A stretch of DNA of 25,445 nucleotides from a virus. The first letter of the stretch is position 1. Each line of letters opens with the position of its first letter. The stretch is from the IMG/VR virus record IMGVR_UViG_3300017989_000416, positions 1-25,445 of that record, one strand, 5' to 3'. Positions 3,989 to 17,338 of this stretch are shown in pieces. The notes beneath the pieces are model-generated. The model did no database searches, was not told where the DNA came from, and was given only the letters and a program-made list of their open reading frames with translations. The translations under genes and the position numbers were made by a program.

Positions 3989-6900
3989 TAGTATGCGGCT
4001 CCCGCTTCGCGTTGCACGTCAGGGAATATGTCAGCCAGTACGCGAATCATGGCGCTGCGAAGCAACAGCGAATCGCTATTGCCGGCCGCGCGGTCTTCCT
4101 TGTACATGTCGCGCAGGTCAACCATGGCCTGCTGCCACTCACCACCGGCTGTGCCACCACCGCCGCCACCGCCTGAGTACACAGGAGGGGCGCCAATAAC
4201 GCCGCCCCAGTCTCGCGTCGGTGTGGGAAGTTTCGGTACAGATACACGTGTTATCCCAAATGATTCGCCGAACCCACTGGCCGCGCTTGCGTACGCGAGG
4301 CTGTTCCCGATGCCGTATGCCTGCTGTGCGATGTTGGCCGCTACGTTTGCGCCGACAGTGAATTGACCAAGAATGCCGCGCAACGTCTGGATAAACGCCG
4401 CGACCTTCGCTTCTTCCGGCAGCGCCGTCTCGTTCAGGTCGCCCAGGAACGACAGCGCCGACTTCATCATGTCGAATATCGTCTTGCCATACTCAGCGAA
4501 CGCGCCGGCTGCTTCTGCCGCCTTCGGCCCCAGCGAGTACGCTACCCATGCAATCATCTCGACTGCAAAGCGCACGATGTCGCCGAACACGTAGAACTTC
4601 TGCGGCGTGATGTACTCAGTGCCGAACTCTGCCAGTGCGCCCAACGCATCCAGCGCCGACTTCATCAGCTCCATGGCCTTCTTCGCATTCTCAGAGAACT
4701 CACCGACGCTGTCCCATTCAGCACGCCAGCCGGCAATCTTCTTGAATGCCAGCACGACGATGCCAATCTGGTTTGCCAGTGCCGTGATTTTCTCTCCGAT
4801 GTTCTGTACTGGTTCATAGTCTGCCAGCGCTGTGAGTGCATCTATCGGGCCTTTAATCAGGCTCACCGCCGTGTTAACAGCGCCCGCGAACCCGGTCAGG
4901 TCGGGCCACTCTTCGCGCCACGCGTCCACTCTCTTAATTGCCAGCGTGACGATGCCCATCTGTCCGGCAAGCGATTCTATCTTCGCTCCCAGCCCTGCGA
5001 CCGCTTTGTACTCTGCCAACGCTGCGAGAGCGTCTATTGCGTTCTTGATAGGTGACGTGGCGTTCTGCACCGCACTGGCAAAGGCTGACAGGTCAGGCCA
5101 TTCCGCGCGCCACTCAGACACCTTTTTGAACTCGACAACTACAATACCAATCTGTCCCGCCAGCGCCTTGATTTTCGCGCCCAGCCCCGCTACAACCTTG
5201 TACTCTGCAATGGCGGCCAGTGCATCGACCGCGCCTTGAATGAGGCCGATTGCCGGCTCTACCTCAGCCGCCCACTCTGCCAGCCCGATCCAGTCGGTAT
5301 CGACACGCGTCACTCGGCCAAGCTCTGTCAGCGCCCCGGACAACTGCGCGGCAAATCGGTTTATCTTCGCTCCGAGATTGTCCGGCGGCTCCCATCCATC
5401 CAGCGCGTCGAACGCTTCCAGCGCTGGTACTATCAGCCCCACGAGGTCGCCAATGAGTGACGCTACGACAGCGGCTCGCTCAAGCTCCGCATCCCACCAC
5501 GTCCATGCCAGGCCGATAGCGCGGTTAACGGAGTCGTGCATCTCGGCCATGATTTCCATGATGGCATCGCCTAATCCCTCGACGCCCTGGTAGTTTGCAA
5601 GCTCATCAAACGCATCAATCACGTCAATGAACATGCCCGCTATCGAGGTCATAGTGGTGGCGATGCTTTGTGCGCGCTCAAGGTTAGGATCTCCGCCGAT
5701 GGCCCAGAACAGGTCTGAGAATCGCAGTACCAGGTCGCCAATGTCGGCCATCACTTGCGCCACGCCGGTCACGCCTTGCTGGATGCCAGATTGCAGTCCG
5801 GCCATAGTTTCCTGGCCGATGTTCATAAATACCTTGGACGGGGAGCCGATATCTAGTACAGACGTTACCGCGTTGATAACCGCCCACGCTGCACCAACGG
5901 CAGCATTGACGATAGATGTCACCTTGTTGGCCAGCCCAACTTCCATACCGCCGGCCATAGCTTCGCCAATCTCTTCAGTCAGCTTCGACGGGGAGTGGGC
6001 GTCAATGCCTTTCATAATCAGCGGTATAGAATCCTTGACGGCTGCAATGCCTGCGTCGCTCACCAGGAAGGCGTTAGTAGTAATACCGTTTGCGACGCCA
6101 CCCATCATAGCGGCCCCGACAGCATCGGCGCTCTCCTGCGCGCCGCCACCCTTTATCGCATCAATCATAGATTTCCACATGATGCCTATGAGTTCGTCGC
6201 CGGCCGCTTTCATCTCATCTTTGCGGGTTGTCTGCATATTCTTAACATCGAAAATACCGACGATGGCCTGCCAGATTTTAGTCAGGTCAATTGATTCGAT
6301 AGCCTTGACAATCGAATCACCATACTCTGTGCCAAGTTCAGCAGCACGAGACGGCCCATTTGCCTTCATGTCAGCAAGTGCGGCGTCATACACTTTGTCC
6401 ATCATTGCCTCGACCGTGATGTCCTCAGTGCGAACCAGCGACAGCGCATTGACAAGCAATTCTTCCCATGCGTCCGCTATCTGCTGTGCAAACGAACTCT
6501 CCTGCGATTCCAGCCAGCCCACGGACTTTCCAACCAGTTTCAGCCAAAAAGCATCAATGTGTATCTTGAGCGCTGCAACCCAATCGGATACTTTTGCACC
6601 AAGCCCCTCGATACCTGGCTTGATTGTGTTATTCCAGAAGCGCACCGCCTGCGCCGTCCATACAGATACCTTGCCTTGCATCAGTGACCAGAATGAAACT
6701 ATCTTCGGGCCAAGTGCTTCTGCCCATTCGCCAACCTTATCAGTCAGACCAGCAATGCCCGGCTTGATAGTTTCATTCCAGAAGTCGGTCGCGCTTGACG
6801 CCCACTCCGCGGCTTTCTCTTTCAACTTGCTCCACAATTCCGCAACAGCCGGGCCGATTTTCGCTATCCACTCAGGCACCTTATCCTTGAGGTATCCGAT

Positions 6901-8037
6901 TCCCATGTTGATGACCGCGTGCAACGCTTCCATTGCGCCGCCGGCCCACTCCGCCGCCTTCTCTTTCAGCTTGCCCCACAGTTGCCCGAAGATCATGCCG
7001 AGCTGTGCAACAAGCACGCTAAAACCGCCAAAGTCAAAGGCGCGTTTCAGCGTCTCAAATGCGTTGCTTATCCACAAAATCGTATCAGCCAGCCAGTCCG
7101 GGAATATCTCGCGCCAATTGACATTTCCGAGATTTGACCAATCTATATCTAGCACCTTCTGTACCCACTCAATTACTGCATTCAATATGGGTTGTAGAGT
7201 ACTTGTCCATAACTCAGATAGCCCGATCTGAAAGTCCTCAAAAGCGTCAACCGCCTTCTCTACCCACGGTATAAGCAGCGGGCCTATGGTTTGCGCTAGT
7301 CTCAGCAATGGCGTCAGCAGTGCATTCAGGATGGGTAGCAACGCCACGCCGACAGTGTCTTTCAGATTGGCGAACGTGGCCTTGAGCTGCGCCATCTTGA
7401 TACCAGCCACGTCGCCCACGTCACCCACGCGCTCCATAGCGACCGCGCCTTCTTCCATCACGGCCTGCATGAACGCTTGTTCACGTGTCATGCCCGCGGT
7501 GCTGGTTATCAGTTCTTCGATGCGCGTACGAACCTTGCCGGATGAGATACCGAACGTGTCAAGACGCGGAATGGACTGGTTGGCAAGCATCAGCGTGAAG
7601 TTTTCCATTGCAGGCCCGGCTTCTTCGCCCATTGCCATACCAAGCGTCGTCGCCATCTCTGCGAGGGTTGCCGCTTCGGCTGCGCTGTTTGCGAGGCCCA
7701 TTGACATGAGCTTCGACCCGCCACTCATAAGGGCGAAGTCGGACAACACGCCTTTCGTAGCCGGGCGCAGCGCGCGCATCATGGAGTCGCTTGTCTCGCC
7801 AATTGTGCTGGCAAGATTCGAGAATGTATTCCCGACAATCTCAACATCCGCTGAGGTAGCGGCAAGCGTTAGGATTGCGCCAGACGCCGCGGCAATGCCT
7901 GTGACGGCAACTTTACCAACGCCTAGAGCGACTTTGCCAAAGCTCTTTAACGCCTTTGTCGGCCCCTTCATATCGCCAGAAAGATTATCCTTCAAACTCA
8001 GGATCATCTTTAGCGCCATCTCTTGTCCAGATGCCAT
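3988..8037 (-). CDS. Tail tape measure protein
   Basis: 1349 residues, the longest gene, directly after the frameshifted chaperones and before the tail hub, as in nearly all siphoviruses. Mostly predicted helix, Ala-rich. Hydrophobic stretches lie at about 36-61 and 230-259. Residues 353-510 hold a 48-residue repeat (units start at 353, 401, 449 and 497, each opening with L/F-W-x-K/L-L/M) rich in spaced tryptophans. Residues 678-760 contain two copies of an S-P-S-K block. Residues 871-1127 hold four copies of a 64-65-residue repeat (A-L-A-E-Y, G-L-G-A-K-I, then W-R-A-E-W-P-D-L). A run of seven glycines (1289-1295) precedes the C-terminal helix. The protein sets tail length, fills the tube and is ejected with the DNA. 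The length would predict a tail of roughly 200 nm using the usual 1.5 angstrom per residue, which is inference. Confidence 0.95.
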   Translation of the reverse strand: MASGQEMALKMILSLKDNLSGDMKGPTKALKSFGKVALGVGKVAVTGIAAASGAILTLAATSADVEIVGNTFSNLASTIGETSDSMMRALRPATKGVLSDFALMSGGSKLMSMGLANSAAEAATLAEMATTLGMAMGEEAGPAMENFTLMLANQSIPRLDTFGISSGKVRTRIEELITSTAGMTREQAFMQAVMEEGAVAMERVGDVGDVAGIKMAQLKATFANLKDTVGVALLPILNALLTPLLRLAQTIGPLLIPWVEKAVDAFEDFQIGLSELWTSTLQPILNAVIEWVQKVLDIDWSNLGNVNWREIFPDWLADTILWISNAFETLKRAFDFGGFSVLVAQLGMIFGQLWGKLKEKAAEWAGGAMEALHAVINMGIGYLKDKVPEWIAKIGPAVAELWSKLKEKAAEWASSATDFWNETIKPGIAGLTDKVGEWAEALGPKIVSFWSLMQGKVSVWTAQAVRFWNNTIKPGIEGLGAKVSDWVAALKIHIDAFWLKLVGKSVGWLESQESSFAQQIADAWEELLVNALSLVRTEDITVEAMMDKVYDAALADMKANGPSRAAELGTEYGDSIVKAIESIDLTKIWQAIVGIFDVKNMQTTRKDEMKAAGDELIGIMWKSMIDAIKGGGAQESADAVGAAMMGGVANGITTNAFLVSDAGIAAVKDSIPLIMKGIDAHSPSKLTEEIGEAMAGGMEVGLANKVTSIVNAAVGAAWAVINAVTSVLDIGSPSKVFMNIGQETMAGLQSGIQQGVTGVAQVMADIGDLVLRFSDLFWAIGGDPNLERAQSIATTMTSIAGMFIDVIDAFDELANYQGVEGLGDAIMEIMAEMHDSVNRAIGLAWTWWDAELERAAVVASLIGDLVGLIVPALEAFDALDGWEPPDNLGAKINRFAAQLSGALTELGRVTRVDTDWIGLAEWAAEVEPAIGLIQGAVDALAAIAEYKVVAGLGAKIKALAGQIGIVVVEFKKVSEWRAEWPDLSAFASAVQNATSPIKNAIDALAALAEYKAVAGLGAKIESLAGQMGIVTLAIKRVDAWREEWPDLTGFAGAVNTAVSLIKGPIDALTALADYEPVQNIGEKITALANQIGIVVLAFKKIAGWRAEWDSVGEFSENAKKAMELMKSALDALGALAEFGTEYITPQKFYVFGDIVRFAVEMIAWVAYSLGPKAAEAAGAFAEYGKTIFDMMKSALSFLGDLNETALPEEAKVAAFIQTLRGILGQFTVGANVAANIAQQAYGIGNSLAYASAASGFGESFGITRVSVPKLPTPTRDWGGVIGAPPVYSGGGGGGGTAGGEWQQAMVDLRDMYKEDRAAGNSDSLLLRSAMIRVLADIFPDVQREAGAAY
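4657..5427 (-). repeat. Four 64-65-codon repeats in tape measure gene
   Basis: Codons 871-1127 of the tape measure encode four consecutive units of 65, 64, 64 and 64 residues, with a partial fifth after them. Shared landmarks are D-A-L at the start, L-A-E-Y or similar, G-L-G-A-K-I, an A-G-Q-x-G-I-V strand and W-R-x-E-W-P-D-L. The first unit is the most diverged. DNA similarity appears lower than protein similarity, so the duplications are old. Confidence 0.8.
6508..6981 (-). repeat. 48-codon tryptophan-spaced repeats in tape measure gene
   Basis: Codons 353-510 of the tape measure. Units begin at 353, 401 and 449, with a partial unit at 497. Each starts with L/F-W followed by a lysine-rich helix ending in E-W or V-W and, 25-30 residues later, I-K-P-G-I or a similar turn. 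Periodic tryptophans in tape measure proteins are known and thought to reflect contacts with the tube subunits. Confidence 0.75.
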
Positions 8038-8038
8038 A

Positions 8039-8628
8039 TCATACCTTAGGGTTATGGCGTCTTTTGCGCTCTACTAATGCTTGCTTCTCTAATCGCACAA
8101 TGATTTCGTCTATCAGGTCTGCCGGCGCGTTCTCTAGCCACTCGTCGGATACTTGCCAGTTGGTGTATTCCTTGATGGCAAGATACGTGCCGTATTCACT
8201 CCGCTCGACATTACCCTTGCCGGTCTCATAGGCACGCTGGTAATCAACACGAATCGACTTTAACCATCGCTCTCGCTCTTCCCCGACAAAGTAGGGTTTA
8301 GCTCCACGACTCGCTTGATTGCGGCGTCCACCAGTTCATCTTCCTGGTCGAGGTCGGCAATCATCGCGCGCTTGAACGGCACCTTGTTGCCCTCTTCGTC
8401 AAGCAGGCACCAATCGACGATGGACAATTCCAGCATCCGGTAGGTCAACTGACCCGCCGCCATGCTGATTTTCGCCTCGTCGTCGCCCTTCGTGAACTCG
8501 GCTTTCATTACGGAGTCTTGGAACTTTGCGCGGTCGTTGATGCTCAGACGCGCCTTGAGGTCAATCCATTCGTCGGGGCGGTTCTCTACCGTCACCCGTT
8601 CCGCTGTCTTGCTTACAAAGCTACCCAT
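8039..8628 (-). CDS. Tail assembly chaperone G-T fusion, made by -1 frameshift
   Basis: 196-residue product made if ribosomes slip back one base at 8293-8299. The first 112 residues are those of the upstream chaperone through N111-P112; the rest is an 84-residue extension starting Y-F-V-G-E-E-R-E-R-W and ending R-R-H-N-P-K-V, with stop TGA at 8041-8039, one base before the tape measure ATG. The extension frame is open from about 8336 and holds no ATG, GTG or TTG until a late GTG, so it cannot be started on its own. A G/GT pair joined by -1 slippage just before the tape measure is a conserved siphovirus arrangement (lambda G and GT). The fusion is predicted to bind tape measure through the G part and recruit tube subunits through the T part. 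The extension is soluble, charged and helical, as expected. Confidence 0.85.
8260..8628 (-). CDS. Tail assembly chaperone, unshifted (G-like) product
   Basis: 122 residues, ATG at 8628 overlapping the GT2 glycosyltransferase stop by 8 bases, with a GGGAGGG ribosome-binding site. Small, acidic and helical, between the major tail protein region and the tape measure. The last ten residues (T-L-S-G-K-S-E-S-D-G) are translated only when no frameshift happens. No enzyme motif is present, consistent with a chaperone. It sits after the methyltransferase and glycosyltransferase genes rather than directly after the major tail gene, so those three enzymes interrupt the usual tail order. Confidence 0.82.
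   Translation of the reverse strand: MGSFVSKTAERVTVENRPDEWIDLKARLSINDRAKFQDSVMKAEFTKGDDEAKISMAAGQLTYRMLELSIVDWCLLDEEGNKVPFKRAMIADLDQEDELVDAAIKRVVELNPTLSGKSESDG
8293..8299 (-). promoter_or_regulatory. Programmed -1 frameshift slippery heptamer A AAC CCT
   Basis: Read on the minus strand, the zero-frame codons AAC (111) and CCT (112) of the chaperone are preceded by A, giving the X-XXY-YYZ pattern with X = A, Y = C, Z = T. Both tRNAs can re-pair after slipping back one base (AAA, CCC). The heptamer lies 10 sense codons before the zero-frame stop and within the only interval where the two frames overlap openly. I could not fold the downstream RNA for a pseudoknot. Confidence 0.85.
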
Positions 8629-9280
8629 TGATACCCTCCCTGTACTTGCGATTAATCAAGTCTCTATTCTGGTTGTACCTGTCCATCCAGTTCGGCTGTG
8701 TCCTGAATGTGCTCTTACACTTATGTCCCGTGTGGTCTACAATGCACCCGTCGTACACGGCCAGCCGCTTGCCGGCCTGCTGCACACGTATGCAGTAGTC
8801 GCGGTCTTCTTCGCCGTAGCCGATGAACCGCTCGTCCAGCGGGCCTACCTCGTCCAGCACCGCCCGCGGTATCAGCACGCAGACAAACGCCAGGATGGTG
8901 TCCGCATAGCGCACCGACGCCGGCTGTTGCGGCTTCTGCTGTGCATTGCACACGACGCCCTCGACGCCACACGACAAGATGCCAACGTCCGGATACGACT
9001 TCGCTACGGCGTGCATCCCCGCGAACCCGTGCTTCGTCAGCAGCAGCGCGTCGTCGTTCAGCAGGATCACGTCATTGTCGCCGGCGGCTGCGATGCCGAT
9101 GTTGGCATTTCTGGCGAACACAAACGGCCGGATGCCGTCCACATAGCGCACGTCAAGGTCGCACTTCGCCCCGTCATCCACGACGATGATGTCAATGTCC
9201 GGCTCGTTGCGCCGCACGAACGACACGCACGCTTTCAGGTTGTCGCTGTTGGCTGATAGGATTACGACTGATAGGCTCAC
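8621..9280 (-). CDS. Family 2-type (GT-A) glycosyltransferase
   Basis: 219 residues from GTG at 9280, which overlaps the upstream methyltransferase stop as GTGA; the track frame that begins further upstream is just the same frame read through the methyltransferase gene. Order of motifs: V-V-I-L-S at the N-terminus, V-V-D-D-G near residue 34 (nucleotide-sugar binding), L-L-N-D-D-A near 73 (DxD-like metal/donor site), and G-Y-G-E-E-D-R-D-Y-C near 155, the acceptor-side acidic block typical of GT2 and rhamnosyltransferase-like enzymes. Cytoplasmic, no membrane segment. Its stop overlaps the chaperone start by 8 bases, so it is translationally coupled to tail assembly genes. Likely transfers a sugar to a glycan or a virion protein; donor and acceptor are unknown. 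Confidence 0.88.
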   Translation of the reverse strand: MSLSVVILSANSDNLKACVSFVRRNEPDIDIIVVDDGAKCDLDVRYVDGIRPFVFARNANIGIAAAGDNDVILLNDDALLLTKHGFAGMHAVAKSYPDVGILSCGVEGVVCNAQQKPQQPASVRYADTILAFVCVLIPRAVLDEVGPLDERFIGYGEEDRDYCIRVQQAGKRLAVYDGCIVDHTGHKCKSTFRTQPNWMDRYNQNRDLINRKYREGING

Positions 9281-9804
9281 TGCCACACCGCCCGGAACGC
9301 TGTGAAGTCGCACGTCCCTTTGACGCCGATGCCTAACACGGTATGCGGATGGAGCGGGTCACCGATGAATCCCACGTAGCACGTCTCAAATGGACGCAGC
9401 AGGCTCTCGAATCCAGACGGCGTGAATCGCCAGTAGTCATGCGGGAACTCGTGTATCGGGAAGTCCATCACGCTGCTGAGGACGCAGATACCGCCCGGCT
9501 TGAGTATGCGGTGCATCTCATCACACGCCTTGTGGCAGTACTCAACGTGTTCCAGCGTGTCGAGGCATAGCACCGTGCCGGCGGTTTCATCCGGCAGGTC
9601 GATGTCGTGCAGGTTCAGAATCACGTCTACGCCCGGCCCCTCGCGCATGTCACACCCTACGTATTCCATGCCAGGGAATAGCGGGCGCAGATTGGCAATG
9701 TCTTCCTGCCCCTCGACTTGCAATGAACCGAACTCGTATATCGGGCCGCTTATCGGGATGGTCTTTGTTGCCACGCTGACGAACTGCTTTACACGCTGCC
9801 TCAT
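9277..9804 (-). CDS. SAM-dependent class I methyltransferase (Methyltransf_11-like)
   Basis: 175 residues. ATG at 9804 overlaps the preceding gene stop as ATGA. The SAM-binding loop is E-F-G-S near residue 24, followed by V-G-C-D at the end of strand 2, L-C-L-D-T-L-E-H-V as the post-strand-4 motif and L-K-P-G-G before strand 5. The later block F-P-H-D-Y-W-R-F-T-P is common in methyltransferases found next to glycosyltransferases in surface-glycan clusters. No DNA-methylase motif (no D/N-P-P-Y/F). Probably O-methylates a sugar or other small group; substrate unknown. It is the middle gene of a three-enzyme block with a second methyltransferase and a GT2 enzyme. Confidence 0.88.
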   Translation of the reverse strand: MRQRVKQFVSVATKTIPISGPIYEFGSLQVEGQEDIANLRPLFPGMEYVGCDMREGPGVDVILNLHDIDLPDETAGTVLCLDTLEHVEYCHKACDEMHRILKPGGICVLSSVMDFPIHEFPHDYWRFTPSGFESLLRPFETCYVGFIGDPLHPHTVLGIGVKGTCDFTAFRAVWQ

Positions 9805-10247
9805 TTGACGGCCTCCATCCTGATGGTCAGGTATGGCCCGTCTTGTCCGGTACGCAGATTAGCGTCAAGTATCTTGAACGCGGCCTTGATGCCGTATGAC
9901 TCAGCGAACCGCTCTCGGTATATGTTGCCGGCGGTGTAGTACAGGAAGCTGCGCTCGTTCCAGTAGCTCACGTGTGTCGGGTCTTGGAATGCGCCCGGCC
10001 CACCTGTGGTCGGGACGCCAATTTCGATGACGCCACCTGGCGCAAGGACGCGCCACGCTTCGTTCATCGTGTGTATCTTGTCCGGTAGGTGCTCGATTAT
10101 GTCTTTTGCCCGGATGAACTCTACCGAGTTATCGTCCCACGGCCACGCCTCGCGCAGGTCTGCTACTACTACGCCTGCGCGAGGCGATATGTCTACATTC
10201 ACATAATCAGGCCGTATGTCGTCGCAACATCCTAGATTTAGCTTCAT
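9801..10247 (-). CDS. SAM-dependent class I methyltransferase, small
   Basis: 148 residues. Starts with K-L-N-L-G-C-C (motif I; the usual L-N-L-G-C-G has a second C in place of G), Y-V-N-V-D-I at the end of strand 2, A-K-D-I-I-E-H-L near 47-54 and L-A-P-G-G-V-I-E-I near 68-76. This pattern is that of predicted SAM-dependent methyltransferases associated with polysaccharide clusters. ATG has a GGGGGAGGG ribosome-binding site and follows the major tail protein stop by 20 bases. No DNA-binding domain. Likely substrate is a glycan. It is distinct in sequence from its neighbour, so the two probably modify different positions. Confidence 0.87.
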   Translation of the reverse strand: MKLNLGCCDDIRPDYVNVDISPRAGVVVADLREAWPWDDNSVEFIRAKDIIEHLPDKIHTMNEAWRVLAPGGVIEIGVPTTGGPGAFQDPTHVSYWNERSFLYYTAGNIYRERFAESYGIKAAFKILDANLRTGQDGPYLTIRMEAVK

Positions 10248-10267
10248 GGCCCTCCCCCATGTTGCTA

Positions 10268-11266
10268 TCAGCCGCCCAGCGTTTGCAGTTCGTTCACCAC
10301 AAGGAATTGGGCGCCCAGCACCGGCGCGCTGTCGTCGTACACTGCCTTGAACGGCAGAGTCACGATGTCGTCACCGTCTTCGTCTTCGAGTGACGGCACG
10401 GCGGTGTATCTGACGGCCATGTCCACGCGGAACGTCTTGTACGTGTACGTGTCGCCGGTAGTGAGTTCAGAACCAAGGAACTCCATACGCATCAGCCGGA
10501 CGGTCTCATTGCGCGCCGCGGTGATTTCTGTCTCTGCCGAGGCGTCGTGCTCAAGCGTGATGCTGCCGGTGATTTCGTTCTCGCGGTAGCCTCGGAATAC
10601 GGTGGTCGAGAAGTACAGGTTGCCGTCCGCCGTGTGCAGTGCCTTCCAGCCGGTCGGGATGGTCAGGTCGAATGCGTGCCACGTGTTCGTCTTCTGCGTG
10701 GTGCCGACGGTCGTGGTGTCGATGTACAGCTTGCCCTTCTGGAACAGAATCTCTTCGACGTCCACCAGTGACGGCGCGGCGGTGAAGCTGGTATCAACGA
10801 CTTGCTGCCCGCGCAGGGTGCCGCCCATCATTACGGCCTCGCCCTTGGCTCCTGACAGCGTGATTTCCTCAGCGTAGACATACGCCAGTGAGTCTTGTCG
10901 CTGGTCGTCGCCGGCCTCGATGCACAAGGTCTGCTTGGTGCCGGCTACGGTGTCGATAATGTCGTAGGTGTACGCATAGCCAGAACTGTCAACCGTGCCG
11001 GTGTTGACGTTCTCGATGCCGATGGAAAACATCACCGGCAACTGTTCAAACGTGGCCGGCGTGTCGTCCAGTGTGACCGTACCCGCAAGCTGCGGGATGT
11101 AGGATCGGTTGCGCGGCATGTAGCTGCCAACATCCTCTTCGGGAAATACGATTGCGCGCTCGTCGTTCAGCACGCCCGTGCCTCTCCAGATTTCGGTTGT
11201 CGCCTCTGCCGTGCCTGTCGTCGTCTCGTACGCGAACTGGATTCTGCGTAGTGCTTTGACGCCCAT
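10268..11266 (-). CDS. Major tail protein (tail tube subunit)
   Basis: 332 residues, ATG overlapping the upstream stop as TAATG with AAGGAGG in front. Rich in beta strands, Thr and Gly, without enzyme motifs. The N-terminus, K-A-L-R-R-I-Q-F-A-Y-E-T-T-x-G-T, and the later T-V-T-L-D-D-T-P block are typical of phage tube proteins. It lies downstream of the tail terminator candidate and upstream of the chaperones. At 332 residues it is longer than a minimal tube protein (about 200), so an extra surface domain is possible. Assignment rests on context and composition. Confidence 0.78.
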   Translation of the reverse strand: MGVKALRRIQFAYETTTGTAEATTEIWRGTGVLNDERAIVFPEEDVGSYMPRNRSYIPQLAGTVTLDDTPATFEQLPVMFSIGIENVNTGTVDSSGYAYTYDIIDTVAGTKQTLCIEAGDDQRQDSLAYVYAEEITLSGAKGEAVMMGGTLRGQQVVDTSFTAAPSLVDVEEILFQKGKLYIDTTTVGTTQKTNTWHAFDLTIPTGWKALHTADGNLYFSTTVFRGYRENEITGSITLEHDASAETEITAARNETVRLMRMEFLGSELTTGDTYTYKTFRVDMAVRYTAVPSLEDEDGDDIVTLPFKAVYDDSAPVLGAQFLVVNELQTLGG

Positions 11267-11469
11267 TATTTAGCCTCCTTCTCCTTCTCCGGTTTCGGAG
11301 TAGGCTCTTTGAGGCTCTTCTTGTCCTGCTCTTTGGCAGGTGGATCAACGTACTCGGCATACCCGATACTGACCAGTGCATCGTTGTTCGGCTTCGTCAG
11401 GTCAATCTCAAGTCCACGGGCCAAATGCCCGCAACCAATCAACGATAGCGGCTTAAGTAGTCGGATCAT
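11266..11469 (-). CDS. Small unknown protein before major tail gene
   Basis: 67 residues. The first half (IRLLKPLSLIG, G-L-E-I-D-L, then V-S-I-G-Y-A-E-Y) looks like a small beta domain; the second half is a Lys/Glu/Pro tail from about residue 43. ATG has GGAGAG upstream and overlaps the glycosyltransferase stop by 17 bases; the stop overlaps the major tail gene. No recognised family. Small lysine-rich proteins in this place are frequent in phages; a role in tail assembly is a guess from position. Confidence 0.68.
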   Translation of the reverse strand: MIRLLKPLSLIGCGHLARGLEIDLTKPNNDALVSIGYAEYVDPPAKEQDKKSLKEPTPKPEKEKEAK

Positions 11470-12178
11470 GTGTTAACTCTCCTATCTGGTTTTCGGCCCG
11501 TTTCATTGCCACGTAGCTCGTAAAGGTTTCGCCGTCTATGTACTGATAACTCATGTGCGGCGAACAGATGGTCGTGTCCACCCACATGTCAAAGCCGTAC
11601 TTGTTGCACTGTGAGGAAAAATACGTGTCCTCACCCGGATAGTGGCCGGCATTATCGCCGCCCCAGTTGAACCAGAACCACGGCTCTGGTATCGTCTCGA
11701 ATACCTCACGGGCCACGCACAGTGCTGCACTTCCGCATACGTCAATCTTGATGAGGCCCGGCGTCCACTTCTCGATTGTGTGAACAATGCCGTCTTCGCT
11801 CTCGATGTAGTGGCATGGGTCGTATGGCCTACCGCGCCTGAACACCATCGCAGATAACACCTTCTTGTCCGGGTTCGCCTTGATACGCTCCATCATGTGA
11901 AGCGGTAGCCGTGACGGGTGACGGTGATCCGCGTCCAGCATCAGCAGGTGTGTGAACGCCGGGTCGCTCTCCAAGAACCGCTTCACCATCTGATTACGCT
12001 GTAGCGCCACATGCATCGGTTGTGACCGCATGATTCCGAACCCGTCAATCGCCGCCCGTGTTGCCATGTCAATGAAGTCGAAGAAAATGTCGCTGTTCGG
12101 TACGCCGGTGCGTTCCGGCAAAGGAGCGACCATCAGTCGTGGCCGCTCCGCAGCTTCCGTATTCTGTTGCGCTCCCAT
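11453..12178 (-). CDS. GT-A-fold glycosyltransferase, paralogue of the gene at 15216-15830
   Basis: 241 residues, ATG preceded by GGGGGGAAC. Motifs: L-D-A-D-H-R-H-P at 81-88 (DxD metal and nucleotide-sugar site), an A-R-E-V-F-E-T-I-P-E-P-W-F block at 156-168, P-G-E-D-T-Y-F at 181-187 and a late C-S-P-H near 205-208. The same four landmarks in the same order occur in the 204-residue enzyme 4 kb upstream, so the two are paralogues. No membrane segment. Located between the tail terminator candidate and the small gene before the major tail protein. Predicted to transfer a sugar; donor and acceptor cannot be read from sequence. Confidence 0.87.
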   Translation of the reverse strand: MGAQQNTEAAERPRLMVAPLPERTGVPNSDIFFDFIDMATRAAIDGFGIMRSQPMHVALQRNQMVKRFLESDPAFTHLLMLDADHRHPSRLPLHMMERIKANPDKKVLSAMVFRRGRPYDPCHYIESEDGIVHTIEKWTPGLIKIDVCGSAALCVAREVFETIPEPWFWFNWGGDNAGHYPGEDTYFSSQCNKYGFDMWVDTTICSPHMSYQYIDGETFTSYVAMKRAENQIGELTHDPTT

Positions 12179-12186
12179 GTTCCCCC

Positions 12187-12597
12187 CTAGATGTTGCGCC
12201 TCTGCTTAATGTCAATCTCGAATCGCCAGCCAAGGTGCATATCGTTACCAAATTGCAGCACGCCGTAGCTGGATCGCATCCCCTTCACTGTGTCCACCGT
12301 GCCGCTCAATGTGATGTTGGTGGACAGCATATCCTCAAAGCGGTTCAAGAACGGTCGCGCCACTGTCTCCGCCTGTGGCAAGTTACCCCGCGCCACGTGT
12401 AACTCCGCAATGATGGTGCTGTGGCTCTCAAATTCGTGGTACGGCCCGAATATCGTCTCGCCACGACTCGGCATGTTGATAAACGCCGGCATATCCATGA
12501 TGCTCTCAGGCGTCTTGTCGTGTGCCGCCTTGACGCCAGTTATGTCGCGCTCCAATGCTGCCAGCGCCGTGAATACCGCCTCGAAATCAGTCGCCAT
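12187..12597 (-). CDS. Tail terminator / tail completion protein candidate
   Basis: 136 residues starting T-D-F-E-A-V-F-T-A-L, with mixed helix and strand, and ending with a strand-rich part (Y-G-V-L-Q-F-G-N, then W-R-F-E-I-D-I). ATG at 12597 shares its first base with the preceding stop (TAATG). Size, position after the HK97 gp10-like protein and before the major tail gene, and overall make-up agree with the tail terminator family (lambda gpU-like). No specific motif proves it; another neck protein is possible. Confidence 0.68.
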   Translation of the reverse strand: MATDFEAVFTALAALERDITGVKAAHDKTPESIMDMPAFINMPSRGETIFGPYHEFESHSTIIAELHVARGNLPQAETVARPFLNRFEDMLSTNITLSGTVDTVKGMRSSYGVLQFGNDMHLGWRFEIDIKQRRNI

Positions 12598-13142
12598 TAC
12601 TTCCCCGCCATTCGTCGCCCTATATCTGGCAGAATCTTGTTCATCTCAGAGATCACGTTGCCCTTCGCGCCTTCCCACGCCTTACGCAGAAACTTCTTCG
12701 GGCGCAATCCGCCACGCAGACCGATGGCCCGTGCCACCGCCCACGCGCTGGCTATGCCATTTCGCTTCGCCCACGTTTCAAGCACCGCCGGCGGAGGCCA
12801 GTGTCGCTTGCCCGGTTTCGGCCCCGGCCCGTCGTAGAGTAGGCCAGTACCATACTCCTGATACGCCATGTGTTTGTTCGGACTGCCGACGATACCCTGC
12901 AAGTCGCTGCCAATCGGCTCTACCATGTGCGTGATGGACGATATGCCTTGCCCTGTTCCGCCCGAACCGTAGCCAGACGGCCCCTTGCCTGCCGCGTTTA
13001 CTTTTGCCGGCGTCTCGATGTGAATCAGCGCCACGTTCATGTGCTTGCTGGCAATCGACTTGACGCGTGGGTCATTCAGCCGGCGTATAATCTTGTCGAT
13101 GTCTTCGACGCCCTCTAGTTTGATTGGCAGCCCATCGGTCAT
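12597..13142 (-). CDS. HK97 gp10-like neck / tail completion protein
   Basis: 181 residues. The opening I-K-L-E-G-V-E-D-I-D-K-I-I-R-R-L resembles the G-x-x-x-L-x-x-x-L start of HK97 gp10-family proteins. The central Y-Q-E-Y-G-T-G (about residues 93-99) is the family's diagnostic aromatic-E-x-G-T block. The C-terminal region has P-K-K-F-L-R-K-A-W followed by a helix, also typical. ATG at 13142 overlaps the connector stop as ATGA. Acts in joining head to tail. A glycine-rich segment at 51-66 may be a loop. Confidence 0.85.
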   Translation of the reverse strand: MTDGLPIKLEGVEDIDKIIRRLNDPRVKSIASKHMNVALIHIETPAKVNAAGKGPSGYGSGGTGQGISSITHMVEPIGSDLQGIVGSPNKHMAYQEYGTGLLYDGPGPKPGKRHWPPPAVLETWAKRNGIASAWAVARAIGLRGGLRPKKFLRKAWEGAKGNVISEMNKILPDIGRRMAGK

Positions 13143-14026
13143 ATCGCTAGCCGTCTCAGGCCCGCATCGTACAGCACCGCCTTGATTTCCGGCGCTATCT
13201 CTTTGACGTACATCAGTTGGCCCAGTTCAATCACGCCGCCGGCGTCCTGGTACGAACCCTGCGCTCGCTTGAATGACCGCACCGCGGAGGCGATGACCGC
13301 TTCCTTGACTATCTCCGCCGGCCTGTACACATAGATGGTCGTGTCCTGGTCGTGCGCCGCGGCTGTCGTGCCGCATTGCGCGCGCTTGACGGTGAGCGTT
13401 TCGGTTCCGCCGGCGATGGTCGTCTTCACCACCAGCATGTACTCGGAGTCGGCCTTGATAAGCTGCCCCACCTGGAACCGCGGCCCGACGCCCCACAGGT
13501 CGTCACCGCTGATGCTGTTTACCGTGACGGTCGTGCCAGCCGCTGTAAGTGGGTCATTCTCTACCGTGTCCTGTGAGTCTTCCCACGCGTTAGCGTAGTT
13601 GTCGTGCCAGCCCCACCAGCCGTCAATCTTGACGCTCTTCTGCCCGGTGTACCAGTAGCCATAATTGCCCGTGGTGTTTTGATTCATATCGAGGCGGTAT
13701 ATCGGCGTGGCGTCGTATAGCAGGTCACTTCCACCAACGGCGAAGTAGTCCGTACTGGCAAGCGTGGTATAGTTCTCACCGTGGTCGTATGACATGTACA
13801 CGTTGTCTACTTCGAGCAGCGTGCCGTCAACGTGCAGTGATGCGCCGCCGTCTGAATGCGGGTAGCGTGTGGCGTATTGCGGCCAGAATGTCCTACCTGT
13901 CAGGCGGTCAATGAGGCGGCTTGACTGCGTGATACACCGACGGAAGGCGTGCTTGTATTGGTCAGTCGTGCCGAATGTATCTGGCAGCGCGTCTTTGATT
14001 TCTTCATACGTTGCGTATGGGATCAT
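13139..14026 (-). CDS. Head-tail connector (gp6-like adaptor)
   Basis: 295 residues, longer than usual for this family (100-200). The N-terminus, Y-A-T-Y-E-E-I-K-D-A-L-P, and the following helices with S-R-L-I-D-R-L-T-G-R match gp6/gp15-type head-tail connectors, which form the ring below the portal. A strand-rich middle (about 65-235) separates this from a C-terminal helical part (about 235-295, P-A-E-I-V-K-E-A-V-I-A-S-A-V-R-S-F). The extra length is the middle beta domain, which could decorate the neck. Followed by the gp10-like protein through ATGA. Confidence 0.82.
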   Translation of the reverse strand: MIPYATYEEIKDALPDTFGTTDQYKHAFRRCITQSSRLIDRLTGRTFWPQYATRYPHSDGGASLHVDGTLLEVDNVYMSYDHGENYTTLASTDYFAVGGSDLLYDATPIYRLDMNQNTTGNYGYWYTGQKSVKIDGWWGWHDNYANAWEDSQDTVENDPLTAAGTTVTVNSISGDDLWGVGPRFQVGQLIKADSEYMLVVKTTIAGGTETLTVKRAQCGTTAAAHDQDTTIYVYRPAEIVKEAVIASAVRSFKRAQGSYQDAGGVIELGQLMYVKEIAPEIKAVLYDAGLRRLAI

Positions 14027-14029
14027 CGC

Positions 14030-14419
14030 TTACCTCAGCGTGATAATGGTCGTGCCTGTCTTGGCGCTGCCGGCGTTGCTCACATTCAACGTGAGCGCAC
14101 TGTTGACTACCGCTCCCAGCCCGTCTTTGTTGGTCTTATATGTCGTGGCATCATTGGCAAGGTTCGCGCCCAGCCCGGCTATCACGTCCACACTGTTGCT
14201 ATCTGCGATGGTGATGTCGTACGCGTTGGTAGGCTGTGTGCCGCCACTGCCAGGTATCTGTGTCACCGATTCTATGATGCCATTCAGCACGGCAGTTGTG
14301 GCGCTGGTTACGCCACCGTCCTGCGCCGGCGCTGCTGCTGTACCAGATGTCCACGCCCACTTAATCTGCTTGACAGACGCGGAGGTGATTTCCGTTTTCG
14401 TTGCGGTTCCTACTGCCAT
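14030..14419 (-). CDS. Probable virion structural protein, unknown
   Basis: 129 residues, starting A-V-G-T-A-T-K-T-E-I. Thr/Ala/Gly-rich with many short strands, no cysteine, no membrane segment, and a repetitive-looking ending (L-T-L-N-V-S-N-A-G-S). Lies between the sulfotransferase and the head-tail connector. The make-up fits a small structural beta protein such as a decoration or stopper component. I recall similar proteins among neck genes of uncharacterised phages but cannot name a family. Confidence 0.65.
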   Translation of the reverse strand: MAVGTATKTEITSASVKQIKWAWTSGTAAAPAQDGGVTSATTAVLNGIIESVTQIPGSGGTQPTNAYDITIADSNSVDVIAGLGANLANDATTYKTNKDGLGAVVNSALTLNVSNAGSAKTGTTIITLR

Positions 14420-14422
14420 CGG

Positions 14423-15052
14423 TTACTCTCCATGATTCAATTCAGGATGCACAAACTCAATCGCGGCCTCTGTGACCGGAATGCCGAGGTACGCTGCCAG
14501 CACTTCGACGCTTGTCTCTGGCGCATCCAGCACGCCCTCGTATTCAATCTGCGCCCACTCTCGCCCTTCAAGGAAGTCAGCCAGCCGCTCGTTGTATTCG
14601 TCATACAGATAACCGGCGACCTCCGCGGTCTGGTGCGCGTCACGTGTCAGCAGCGACTTGACTACCGATTCCCGCTTGCGAAACACTGCCACGAATATCG
14701 GGTCGGTCAGGTGTGGCAGATAATGGTCAATGGTCAGGACGGTGCGCGGGTCTTTCCATCCCCATATCAGGTACTTGGCATCGCGCCGCGCTATCATGTC
14801 CTTGATAAGTGGCTCCGCGCCGGTGACGCTGTTCAGCATCTTGCGAGGCGGCACGTGATCCCATGCCCCGCCGCACGCCTCGATTATCTTTTGATTCACG
14901 TAGACGAATGATGTGTCCTCAAAGTGGCCCATCGGGTTTGACTCCGCAGGCCCGACTAGCACCGATCCCATTGACACGCCCAGGCGGGTGAGTATCCCCG
15001 CTACCATCGACGTGCCGCTTCTGTGCATTCCCAACACTACTACCTGGCTCAC
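14423..15052 (-). CDS. Sulfotransferase family protein (PAPS-dependent)
   Basis: 209 residues, GTG start at 15052 with GGGGGGAGCC directly in front. G-M-H-R-S-G-T-S (residues 8-15) is the 5'-phosphosulfate-binding loop of PAPS sulfotransferases. G-W-K-D-P-R (98-103) and F-R-K-R-E-S-V-V-K-S (124-133, with R125 and S133 for the 3'-phosphate) complete the usual set. The C-terminal helical part (170-200) closes the domain. No signal peptide or membrane segment, so it acts in the cytoplasm and needs host PAPS. It follows a glycosyltransferase and a 59-residue gene, so a sugar hydroxyl on a phage or cell glycan is the likely acceptor. Other members of this fold could hydrolyse or transfer other phospho-nucleotide groups, but the motif set is clear. 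Confidence 0.88.
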   Translation of the reverse strand: MSQVVVLGMHRSGTSMVAGILTRLGVSMGSVLVGPAESNPMGHFEDTSFVYVNQKIIEACGGAWDHVPPRKMLNSVTGAEPLIKDMIARRDAKYLIWGWKDPRTVLTIDHYLPHLTDPIFVAVFRKRESVVKSLLTRDAHQTAEVAGYLYDEYNERLADFLEGREWAQIEYEGVLDAPETSVEVLAAYLGIPVTEAAIEFVHPELNHGE

Positions 15053-15061
15053 GGCTCCCCC

Positions 15062-15241
15062 CTACCTGTCTTCCCATACTCCCGGTCGGTTTGCTATCTG
15101 TTGCGGCGTGGCGCTTGGCTTGTCGATGTTCGGTGACAGAATAATGTCACGCACGATGTAGCCCTTGGCCTTAAGCTCCTCAATTTCCTCTTTGGTGAGC
15201 TTGCGCCCGACCATCTTATTCCGCGGCGCGCTGGTTATCAT
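15062..15241 (-). CDS. Small unknown protein between glycosyltransferase and sulfotransferase
   Basis: 59 residues from ATG at 15241 (GGAGGC in front), overlapping the glycosyltransferase stop by 26 bases. Basic N-terminus (P-R-N-K-M-V-G-R-K), then an amphipathic helix L-T-K-E-E-I-E-E-L-K and a short strand G-Y-I-V-R-D-I-I-L. No known motif. Coupled to both neighbours, so it may belong to the modification group, but that is only position. Confidence 0.6.
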   Translation of the reverse strand: MITSAPRNKMVGRKLTKEEIEELKAKGYIVRDIILSPNIDKPSATPQQIANRPGVWEDR

Positions 15242-15830
15242 ATTGCCTCCTGAATGCATCCGATACGTTCTGGTCTACCCAGCCCTGTACCAGGTGCGGC
15301 GATTGCACCGACGGGTCAACCCATATCGGGATGTCGTGCTCGCGGCACTTCGCGCAGAATGCTAAGTCCTCTCCGAGCCACTTGCCGTATTCAATCGTGA
15401 ACCAAGGCGACGGGATTGTCTCGAATACTTCCCGCGCTATCATCAGACACGCGCCGCCTACGAAGTCGGTCTGGAATGGCTCGGTCGGGACAGCCGCAAG
15501 TCTCAGCATGTCGCCGTCATCATAGGCCCATGCGGTCGGTTCGTATGGCGGCCCACGCCGATATGATAGGCCCGACATCACCGGCTTGTTGTGCGCCAGT
15601 AGCCGCTCGACGATATCCGCCGGATGCTTGTGGTCTACGTCTAGCATCAAGATGTGCGAGTAGTCACTATCAAGCAGCATCTGCGCCAGTGTGTTGCGCT
15701 GCTTGTCGGCCCGTGTGTACTTGACACGAAAGAACGGATGGCCGCGCTCTACAATTGCCAGTAACGAAAATAGCGCCTCGTCACACGCGACGCCGGCCCG
15801 CTCTGGCAGTATTCCAAGTACTACGGTCAT
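15216..15830 (-). CDS. GT-A-fold glycosyltransferase
   Basis: 204 residues from ATG at 15830, three bases after a run of eight G on the coding strand. A start 42 bases further up is possible but would place the ribosome-binding site inside the hairpin at 15849-15870, so it is not chosen. M-L-D-V-D-H-K-H-P at 62-70 carries the DxD pair; A-R-E-V-F-E-T-I-P-S-P-W-F at 132-144 and G-E-D-L-A-F-C at 153-159 follow; H179 sits in S-P-H-L. These landmarks are shared with the enzyme at 11453-12178. Predicted cytoplasmic sugar transferase; substrate unknown. Confidence 0.87.
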   Translation of the reverse strand: MTVVLGILPERAGVACDEALFSLLAIVERGHPFFRVKYTRADKQRNTLAQMLLDSDYSHILMLDVDHKHPADIVERLLAHNKPVMSGLSYRRGPPYEPTAWAYDDGDMLRLAAVPTEPFQTDFVGGACLMIAREVFETIPSPWFTIEYGKWLGEDLAFCAKCREHDIPIWVDPSVQSPHLVQGWVDQNVSDAFRRQYDNQRAAE

Positions 15831-15848: not shown

Positions 15849-15870
15849 GGAGAGGGGTTGCCCCCTCTCC
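15849..15870 (-). promoter_or_regulatory. Perfect 9-bp hairpin downstream of beta-helix gene
   Basis: On the minus strand, GGAGAGGGG pairs with CCCCTCTCC around a GCAA tetraloop (GNRA type). It starts about 8 bases after the beta-helix stop and ends 18 bases before the glycosyltransferase ATG. No U-tract follows, so it is not a good intrinsic terminator; it could protect the upstream mRNA end or dampen translation of the next gene. Confidence 0.75.
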
Positions 15871-15878
15871 ATTACAGA

Positions 15879-16796
15879 TTACGCGTTGGTCGAGGCTGTC
15901 CAGTCTATCAACATGCCTTTTTCATCGACGAGGTTAGCCACATACACAGGATCCATAAGCTGGAACGTTGCGCCTGTGACAGCCGTGGTGATGTTGGCCG
16001 CATTGTCAGCTAACATGATTTGCAGGTTCGGCCCGATGAAGCCGGTCGAGCTGGTGACGGTATCCACAATGGCGATATCGGCGGCGTTGGCTGTCCAGAT
16101 TTTGCCGTCGTGGATGTCTACCCGTGCGCTCAGGGTTGTGCGGCAGTCGATTGCGCCGACTGCGAAGTTGCCGTAAATGTAGAAGTTCTTGATCTCTACA
16201 TCGTCGGCCCCAACAAGGGCGATTGCGCTGTTCGCACCGGCAGCCGCAGCGCCGAAGTGCTTGTATCCGTCAATCAACAGCCGGTCAGCCGCGGCGGTCG
16301 TGATGATTGTGTCCGTGGCCTGTCCGGTTACGTCTCGATACTCACAGTCGATGATGGCGCAGTCGGTTGAACTCACTTCGATGACGCCGGTCGTCGCGTC
16401 GATGCCGCCGGTAAAGCGGAGGTTCTGGATGGTCACGCCAGCCGCGGCAAGTTTGCAGTCGCCGGCGGCAGCAGTAGCGTTCAGCGTCGGCATCTGTCGC
16501 CCGCGCCGAATGCCGATGACCGTCACGCCGGCCACGTCGATGTCCACCGCGCTGTCAGCCGCCAAACTTTCGGTATGCGCGGGGTGAACCCAAATCACAT
16601 CATCATGGCTGGCTGTGCATTTGTTCACAGCCGCGTCAATGGTGCTCAACGGGTCGTCCCACGACAAGCCGCTCGCGGTTGCAGAGCCGCTGTTGCTATC
16701 CACGAAGTACGCATCGCCAGCGAAGTCGCCAGGGTACATGACAAGCTGGCCATTCATCCATCGGGAGTACAGCGCCCCACGAGGTGCTTCACTCAT
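15879..16796 (-). CDS. Head-associated right-handed beta-helix protein
   Basis: 305 residues with an almost ideal ribosome-binding site. After about 28 residues it has F-V-D-S-N-S-G-S-x-x-x-x-G-L-S-W-D-D-P-L-S-T-I-D-A-A, the typical entry of pectate-lyase-like beta-helices, then rung-like strands (V-T-V-I-G-I, V-T-I-Q-N-L-R-F, A-I-I-D-C-E-Y, V-E-I-K-N-F-Y-I-Y). The last 60 residues leave the helix. Location two genes after the major capsid, between the decoration candidate and the glycosyltransferase, suggests a capsid fibre or spike instead of a tail spike. No obvious catalytic set is visible. A tail role is possible but less likely from gene order. Confidence 0.78.
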   Translation of the reverse strand: MSEAPRGALYSRWMNGQLVMYPGDFAGDAYFVDSNSGSATASGLSWDDPLSTIDAAVNKCTASHDDVIWVHPAHTESLAADSAVDIDVAGVTVIGIRRGRQMPTLNATAAAGDCKLAAAGVTIQNLRFTGGIDATTGVIEVSSTDCAIIDCEYRDVTGQATDTIITTAAADRLLIDGYKHFGAAAAGANSAIALVGADDVEIKNFYIYGNFAVGAIDCRTTLSARVDIHDGKIWTANAADIAIVDTVTSSTGFIGPNLQIMLADNAANITTAVTGATFQLMDPVYVANLVDEKGMLIDWTASTNA

Positions 16797-16852: not shown

Positions 16853-17338
16853 TTAGGACGGCTTCACGTAGACGTACACGCCAGAGCTGTCCGCCCCGTT
16901 GAGCTGGTCACGCTTGACGCGCGAGCCGCCACGGACGTACACAGCCGACACGTTGTCTGTGCCGGTGTTTCCACCCTCAGAGGCATGGACACGCACATGC
17001 GTAAATCCATCGTCCAGGTCTGACGCGTGGCATTCCAGGATCACCCAGTTGCCATCAGCGTCAATCGGCGCGGCGGTATCATAGTCACCGGATGCCGCGG
17101 AGGTGGTCAGCGCCTTGGAGTAGCTACCTGCGCTGTCCTTGGCCTGTTCCAGGTGGCATTCGTCGAGGTCATCGCCGGCGTTCCAGGTGCCAAGCTCCAC
17201 CTTGCACAGGAAGGTCTCGAAATCTTCCATCGACACCCAGTGGAGCGACGTATCGCTGCCGTTGGTGTTCGTGCCGCCGATATCCGTTTCGGTGAACGGG
17301 AAGTCCACCGCAATCAGTTGGGAAAGGTACTCACTCAT
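16853..17338 (-). CDS. Probable capsid decoration / head protein
   Basis: 161 residues, starting S-E-Y-L-S-Q-L-I-A-V-D-F. Strand-rich, acidic, with W-V-S-M-E-D-F-E-T-F-L-C near 34-45 and W-V-I-L-E-C-H-A-S-D near 98-107; the ending runs V-Y-V-R-G-G-S-R-V-K-R-D-Q-L. No known enzyme motif. It directly follows the major capsid gene, with the ribosome-binding site AGGAGGAG beginning inside the capsid stop codon context, so high and coordinated expression is expected. That place is usual for cement or decoration proteins. Family not recognised. Confidence 0.68.
   Translation of the reverse strand: MSEYLSQLIAVDFPFTETDIGGTNTNGSDTSLHWVSMEDFETFLCKVELGTWNAGDDLDECHLEQAKDSAGSYSKALTTSAASGDYDTAAPIDADGNWVILECHASDLDDGFTHVRVHASEGGNTGTDNVSAVYVRGGSRVKRDQLNGADSSGVYVYVKPS

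Follow-up and report, generated by a model that had tools for sequence, protein, structure and literature searches.

In phage Corndog, the products of gp35–gp38, namely an O-methyltransferase, two glycosyltransferases and a putative N-acetylglucosaminyltransferase, are proposed to put methyl and glycan groups on the capsid (PMC4351075). For mycobacteriophages of cluster O, modification of both capsid and tail tube is described, and for mycobacteriophages an effect on antibody recognition is reported (Freeman 2023, as cited in PMC11600133). In the virus STIV, the enzyme A197 is essential and is proposed to glycosylate the coat protein, which is known to be glycosylated (PMC10551542), and Maf enzymes O-glycosylate flagellin, a self-assembling filament protein (PMC11339370). 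The locus described here belongs to an uncultured tailed phage of the siphophage type and lies in IMGVR_UViG_3300017989_000416 (the window, that is, the whole stretch of 25,445 nt; all coordinates are window positions). Like Corndog and the cluster O phages, it carries glycosyltransferases (GTs) and methyltransferases (MTs) within a siphophage structural block, the O-methylation by MT1 and MT2 being putative.

The late operon encodes three glycosyltransferases (GT1, GT2 and GT3), two methyltransferases (MT1 and MT2) and a sulfotransferase (ST), all six in minus-strand orientation, like the structural genes around them (Table 1). Slot A, in the head region, has the order beta-helix gene, GT1-p65-ST, p129-connector; slot B has the order tail terminator, GT2, p67-major tail protein (MTP); and slot C has the order MTP, MT1-MT2-GT3, chaperone. 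The first-pass annotation had placed six glycan-type enzymes at these three sites, and all six are present, with the flanking genes identified and the MTP recognized by its predicted fold. It had also described the genes as co-directional and coupled by overlaps: the common direction and the tight spacing (−44 to +20 nt) hold, and some of the overlaps become smaller with better start choices. The gene order is the same in L001, a further contig of this phage that comes from a metagenome and is 99–100% identical over nearly all genes. We note that the stretch with a hairpin before GT1 folds, overall, no better than shuffled sequences.

Table 1. Features of the window, listed in the direction of the late operon.
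Feature	Position	Strand	Basis
Major capsid protein (MCP), HK97 fold, possible substrate	17351..18682	-	PF05065, E 5.9e-44
Putative head decoration protein, possible substrate	16853..17338	-	directly after MCP; phrog_28483; homologs in relatives
Beta-helix head protein, slot A upstream border, possible substrate	15879..16796	-	position
GT1, GT-A glycosyltransferase (phrog_1574 family), slot A	15216..15830	-	phrog_1574, DxD + ED motifs
p65, 65-aa ORF between GT1 and ST	15062..15259	-	ORF only
ST, PAPS-type sulfotransferase (PF13469), slot A	14423..15052	-	Sulfotransfer_3
Head-tail connector, slot A downstream border	13139..14026	-	position and homologs
Tail terminator, slot B upstream border	12187..12597	-	position; homologs before MTP in most relatives
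GT2, GT1 paralog, slot B between tail terminator and MTP	11453..12178	-	phrog_1574, AF2 model
p67, small gene beside MTP	11266..11469	-	phrog_2616
MTP, major tail (tube) protein, proposed substrate	10268..11266	-	AF2 fold
MT1, class-I SAM methyltransferase, slot C	9801..10247	-	PF08241
MT2, class-I SAM methyltransferase, slot C	9277..9804	-	PF08241
GT3, GT-A family-2-like glycosyltransferase, slot C	8621..9280	-	phrog_2456
Tail assembly chaperone, slot C downstream border	8260..8628	-	probable -1 frameshift site AAACCCT at 8299
Tape measure protein	3988..8037	-	phrog_4372 and others
Tail protein with CBM_4_9 domains	1616-3988		

GT1 and GT2, which are paralogous with 34% identity, both match phrog_1574 (E 7.5e-11 for the profile match of GT1 and E 4.8e-9 for GT2), a family without a named function that is listed as unknown function. 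The DxD and ED motifs are kept in seven of seven GT1/GT2 family members compared, and the Pfam match of GT1 to Anp1 stays below threshold. The AF2 model of GT2 (pLDDT 88.5) has a GT-A fold, which GT1 would share by homology to GT2. The best structural match of this model in the PDB is STIV A197 (E 4.1e-10, TM 0.53/0.65), which is also the sole PDB-sequence profile match of GT2 below 0.01 (E 5e-5); the next fold matches are the protein glycosyltransferases LH3 and COLGALT1. GT3 matches the glycosyltransferase family phrog_2456 (E 1.4e-10), and its Pfam matches are to GT families only, all below cut-off. Its homologs adjoin a GT in three relatives (L029, L034 and L044). GT1 probably starts at 15830, the choice made in the first-pass annotation (the longest ORF extends to 15872), and GT3 probably starts at the GTG at 9280, which overlaps the MT2 stop codon as GTGA (the longest ORF extends to 9313).

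A weak, sub-threshold similarity between GT3 and the TET-associated glycosyltransferase family PF20691 (E 0.0028) is what one might expect if, as in TET/TAGT phages, the enzymes hypermodify phage DNA by glycosylation and methylation of bases. We consider this highly improbable, because no base-modifying enzyme was recognized among the window proteins scanned, and modification of DNA leaves both the restriction to head and tail slots and the sulfotransferase unexplained. The finding that Tet_JBP has no match in 50 related contigs adds weakly, since the control genomes are silent too, and the window genome is incomplete.

ST scores 32.8 bits against Sulfotransfer_3 (PF13469; cut-off 27) and carries GMHRSGTS at its N-terminus; a first scan of the window with PF00685 was empty, the sulfotransferase belonging to PF13469. 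The closest relative found (40% identity) lies within an ST-GT-GT cassette of another phage, and the sulfotransferase of L037/L050 lies outside the structural slots, its ST-GT-GT cassette being placed upstream of the gene for the small terminase. Among 50 contigs carrying MTP, both sulfotransferases above cut-off (L083 and L091) sit in the head slot. Pseudomonas phage Y4 (OQ572406), the only ST match among named phages, resembles bacterial chromosomal DNA and was discarded. MT1 and MT2 match Methyltransf_11 (PF08241) with 31.4 and 39.5 bits, respectively (cut-off 21.2), and a homolog 69% identical to MT2 occurs in a slot B cassette of L017/L022. As for the two small ORFs, family searches with p65 gave no match, and p67 is widespread in slot B among relatives, whether or not this slot holds a GT. 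There is no Mycobacterium phage among the tblastn matches of GT1, ST, MT1, GT3 and MT2.

The structural genes that border the slots are assigned mainly as listed in Table 1. The AF2 model of the MTP (pLDDT 90.1) resembles the P74-26 tail tube in the PDB (TM 0.73/0.70) and the MTP of SH-Ab15497 (TM 0.66/0.71), and this predicted tail-tube fold is combined with a position ahead of the chaperone and tape measure genes. The beta-helix protein occupies the same position in L022, after the MCP and decoration genes.

The position of the enzymes was examined across relatives in a search seeded by the MTP only, with enzymes not used, which comprised 67 phage clusters. Glycan-type enzymes occur in slot B (terminator to MTP) in 27 of 60 clusters and in slot A (decoration to connector) in nine of 21, as compared with control intervals: one of 55 between connector and terminator, none of 26 after the tape measure gene and none of 13 between MCP and decoration gene (Fisher test, 1e-8 for slot B and 4e-6 for slot A). 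Slot C (MTP to chaperone) rarely carries enzymes (3/54, the window included) and is not significantly enriched (against 0/26, p 0.55). The enzyme HMMs used for the count were partly seeded from slot genes, a bias that a control with Pfam alone removes only in part; this control gives about 30 matches among 98 slot proteins (13 PF00535, 10 PF13578 and 6 PF01973, plus sulfotransferase, FkbM and others), and among 91 control-interval proteins it finds no glycan-type family and one DNA methylase only. On these slot statistics, the placement of the enzymes exceeds chance. More than half of the relatives have no recognized enzyme in slot B, GT homologs are also found outside the slots (for example, in L043 and L048), and no enzyme was recognized within the stretches read of three contigs related through the MCP (L002, L004 and L005). 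Rather than carrying one enzyme each at random, the outcome by which the first-pass annotation would have been refuted, relatives vary much in content but are strongly restricted in position. Scans of viral contigs with a single protein recovered only the phage itself for GT1, ST and GT3 and one relative for MT2; an alignment of seven GT sequences was too diverse as a query, whereas the GT1 plus GT2 alignment worked. A scan of genome contigs for the host returned a single result, a contig of 6 kb from an Izemoplasmatales MAG bin, which is too weak to name a host.

The strong variation in slot content between relatives would also be seen if the slots were simply tolerated insertion points for late-expressed morons whose targets differ and which share no product. 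The slots do hold DNA methylases (L029/L071) and other genes too, and co-evolution of GT and MTP is not detected when distances are compared with the terminator as control (partial r 0.12, permutation 0.22). No single Ser/Thr site of the MTP separates GT-carrying from GT-free phages, with nothing surviving 332 tests (overall Ser+Thr in this comparison, 18.7% versus 17.0%). However, GT, sugar-type MT and Maf-like genes dominate the slot content, and other intervals, equally tight, are empty. In addition, MT-GT fusions and GT-MAF-GT cassettes recur, and in L023, L024 and L042 this holds even upstream of a gene that has the size of a tail-protein gene but no similarity in sequence to the window MTP. 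MT-GT fusions occur in slot C of L065, where the GT part is a GT3 homolog, and in slot B of L025 and L135. These fusions tie methylation to glycosylation, and we regard an assortment of unrelated morons as improbable. L135 resembles the window in pairing a head-slot GT with a tail-slot GT, the latter being an MT fusion in L135. Slot labels need at least two changes on the GT tree, so the head-slot copies are not of single origin.

Class-I MTs and sulfotransferases also decorate surface polysaccharides, and glycosyltransferases of phages are known to alter host surface glycans (PMC10955285). The enzymes of the window could modify the host surface during infection, so as to mask receptors, exclude superinfection or convert the serotype, and owe their place to the strong late promoter only; the CBM_4_9 domains of one tail protein indicate that host glycans matter to this phage. 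Nevertheless, expression amid head and tail genes would be badly timed for a change of the host surface, and the insertions are confined to slots beside the head and MTP genes, with control intervals almost empty. The scanned proteins of the window include no recognized flippase or polymerase, nor a multi-pass membrane glycosyltransferase of the kind sought for a gtr-like locus, and hydropathy gives no TM-like segment in five of the six enzymes, GT3 being borderline. A host-surface role is therefore unlikely.

In sum, the six enzymes probably constitute a virion-modification set, by which head and tail-tube proteins would receive methylated, sulfated glycans. The basis for this reading is gene content and order, enzyme families, the predicted GT2 and MTP folds, the recurrent use of the slots in many distantly related uncultured phages and the MT-GT fusions; from these we infer the substrate proteins, the order of the steps and the presence of sulfate and methyl on the same glycan. 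Counting against it are GT distances that do not follow MTP distances, the Ser/Thr result for the MTP, the many relatives with no recognized enzyme in slot B, the GT homologs outside the slots and the lack of significant enrichment in slot C. The enzymes would be produced alongside the structural proteins, which they would modify before assembly or in its course, with nucleotide sugars, SAM and PAPS taken from the host. For GT1, whose gene lies next to those for the decoration and beta-helix proteins, the substrate to be glycosylated is probably a surface protein of the head, and for GT2, its paralog beside the tail-tube gene, it is probably the MTP. GT3 would extend the glycan, MT1 and MT2 would O-methylate its sugars, and ST would add sulfate from PAPS. 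More tentatively, the arrangement may follow spatial rules, in which paralogous head and tail-tube GTs each lie beside their substrate gene, shared tailoring enzymes lead to methylated, sulfated glycans, and the two slots hold exchangeable cassettes.

If virion modification is correct, a sugar coat would be common and modular among uncultured siphophages, with its genes at predictable positions, and would not be peculiar to a few actinobacteriophages. The slots would provide a genomic rule for spotting glycosylated phages and explain much unannotated late-operon content, such as phrog_1574, and exchangeable cassettes would let siphophages exchange the sugar coat of the head without that of the tail, and vice versa. 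A coat of this kind could influence how the particles adsorb, how stable they are or how antibodies recognize them. Through sulfation, the particles might become sulfated and negatively charged; to our knowledge, there is no earlier phage case of sulfated virion glycans.

The first-pass annotation had suggested that such a route would be a novel virion-modification system. Virion modification is the best-supported reading, given slots re-used far above controls and the MT-GT fusions, whereas a set of GTs and O-methyltransferase within structural genes is already known from Corndog and cluster O (PMC4351075; PMC11600133, citing Freeman 2023). The novelty lies in the sulfotransferase, in the pairing of a head GT copy with a tail GT copy and in the conservation of the slots. 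STIV A197 is, like GT2, a viral GT-A enzyme, and the coat protein of STIV that is glycosylated is B345; however, STIV is an archaeal membrane-containing icosahedral virus with a single GT, for which the available part of the source reports no MT or sulfotransferase partner. With regard to Maf, PF01973, which we take to cover the Maf-type domain, is represented by genes in the same slot of the window's relatives, although the window itself has no PF01973 gene and the phage versions are of about 210 aa. Four podovirus-like Manatee Spring phages (MW202496, MW202711, MW202462 and MW202524) carry a GT of the GT1/GT2 family just after the capsid gene, with one small ORF in between, and MW202524 has GTs together with MT2 and MT1 homologs between the capsid gene and later virion genes; these phages differ in having a gene set of the short-tailed type, with no sulfotransferase annotated in the stretches read. 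Finally, Corndog has a single enzyme block between portal and protease, whereas in the window the enzymes are spread over three sites next to head and tail genes, and, of the two, only the window carries a sulfotransferase and a paralogous pair of head and tail GTs.

The 25,445-base record, which is probably a fragment, carries its structural genes all on the minus strand: small and large terminase, portal with a Mu F domain, protease, HK97-type capsid protein, decoration protein, beta-helix protein, connector, neck, terminator, major tail protein (MTP), chaperone, tape measure and tail genes. Because Pfam and PHROG gave no match for the MTP, its identity was checked by structure; the AlphaFold2 model (mean pLDDT 90.1) best matches, in the PDB, the P74-26 tail tube (TM 0.73/0.70) and the SH-Ab15497 major tail protein. 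Late in the chaperone gene, a slippery heptamer and an open −1 frame that ends shortly ahead of the tape measure start make up a probable G/GT-type programmed frameshift, matching expectation for the chaperone pair. Host glycans are likely bound by the phage, judging from the carbohydrate-binding matches in a tail protein.

Features with coordinates in the window and in related contigs
Contig	Position	Feature
Window	1616–3988	Tail protein with CBM_4_9 (carbohydrate-binding) matches
Window	8260–8628	Chaperone gene; slippery heptamer AAACCCT at 8299
Window	15849–15870	Beta-helix stop to GT1 start: perfect 9-bp hairpin GGAGAGGGG-GCAA-CCCCUCUCC, without a T-run after it
L005	1654–4497	947-aa ORF beside terminase-like genes; intein-like sequence near the N-terminus (by eye only)
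L029 (L071 too)	10593–12519	Two DNA-methylase-like genes (TSPPF and DPPYG motifs) in the terminator-to-MTP slot, interleaved with GT, MAF and FkbM genes

Six glycan-type enzymes at three sites of the structural operon, as described in the first-pass annotation, are indeed present, and another contig from this phage (L001) repeats their order. The glycosyltransferases GT1 (head slot, decoration gene to connector) and GT2 (tail slot, terminator to MTP) are paralogs of phrog_1574, a family without listed function, whose seven compared members all keep a DxD and an ED motif. The GT2 model (pLDDT 88.5) adopts a GT-A fold, with A197 of the archaeal virus STIV as top PDB match, also picked by the GT2 profile search (E 5e-5), the next matches being the glycosyltransferase portions of human LH3 and COLGALT1, enzymes of collagen glycosylation. 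At TM 0.5–0.6, these matches of a predicted model are kinship of fold and do not thereby prove the substrate. GT3 is GT family-2-like, its Pfam scores lying below the cut-offs; the sulfotransferase ST (Sulfotransfer_3) and the class-I methyltransferases MT1 and MT2 all score above theirs. In GC and third-position GC the enzyme genes resemble their structural neighbours, and so do not have the look of newly acquired foreign DNA. The hairpin before GT1 may modulate how strongly the enzyme genes are expressed; folding of the 61-nt stretch that contains it is no better than that of shuffles.

With the GT1 and GT2 alignment as query, 40 loci were reached, about 20 of which have the GT directly after a terminator homolog and, where the contig extends that far, before the same MTP family. 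In L023, L024 and L042, a GT-MAF-GT cassette that may cross tail lineages lies upstream of a tail-protein-sized gene without sequence similarity to the window MTP. Since these loci had been chosen by GT, the search was repeated from the MTP alone, yielding 80 viral loci in 67 clusters at 95%. Recognised glycan-type enzymes occupy 27 of 60 tail slots (Fisher test, 1e-8) and 9 of 21 head slots (4e-6); enrichment in the MTP-to-tape-measure interval (3/54) is not significant. Control intervals hold few or none: connector to terminator 1/55, three genes after the tape measure 0/26, capsid to decoration 0/13, and three genes before the capsid 0/7. Because slot genes made up part of the seeds of the enzyme HMMs, a Pfam-only scan was added. 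It found 13 PF00535, 10 PF13578, 6 PF01973, a sulfotransferase, an FkbM methyltransferase and others among 98 slot proteins, and none of these families, only one DNA methylase, among 91 control proteins; this count is a lower bound, as phrog_1574 GTs are mostly invisible to Pfam.

The first-pass annotation offered modification of the host surface glycan as its alternative. That reading is less likely, given the slot specificity, an unfavourable timing and the fact that no membrane GT or flippase was recognised in the window. Modification of DNA is the least likely, although the control of the TET search did not work.

The other enzymes also recur in relatives. Head-slot sulfotransferases occur in L083 and L091, the only ones above cut-off among 50 MTP contigs; in L031 one is located between the portal gene and a beta-helix-like gene region, and a closer relative of ST (40%) belongs to an ST-GT-GT cassette that precedes the terminase genes of L037/L141. 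An MT2 homolog (69%) sits with a GT and a second MT between terminator and p67-MTP in L022; the slot used by MT2 thus varies from phage to phage. The interval from MTP to chaperone-sized genes holds an MT-GT fusion in L065 and a PF00535 GT in L064; further MT-GT fusions occupy the tail slot of L025 (MT part a sub-threshold Pfam match) and L135. Such fusions suggest one shared pathway for methylation and glycosylation. A stretch of OQ572406.1 (Pseudomonas phage Y4, unverified) was rejected, as its polysaccharide, kinase and sensor genes make it look like bacterial chromosome and not phage.

The window's pairing of a head-slot with a tail-slot GT is repeated in L135. L064/L065 are nearest to both window copies in the GT tree, whose slot-labelled rows require at least two changes for head-slot membership. 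One GT per structural target would be a simple reading of this arrangement; GT distances do not correlate with MTP distances beyond the backbone, and none of the MTP sites is diagnostic.

Gene content, placement, predicted folds, fusions and slot enrichment are observed; for the probable modification of the virion, we infer substrates, chemistry and order of steps as follows. The GTs would be produced together with the late proteins and use host nucleotide sugars as donors, head and tail-tube subunits would be glycosylated before or during assembly, and the MTs and ST would tailor the glycan.

The novelty first claimed for this system holds in part. Full-text searches turned up no publication in which a phage sulfotransferase acts on virions, weak evidence at partial literature coverage. 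A set of GTs with an O-methyltransferase is known from Corndog and the cluster O phages: in these, the O-methyltransferase gene and three GT-type ones lie between portal and protease, and modification of the capsid has been proposed as their role (PMC4351075). According to the later PMC11600133, citing Freeman 2023, both capsid and tail tube are modified by these enzymes. The window phage would work alike, but differs in its sulfotransferase, its three separate sites and its paired GTs.
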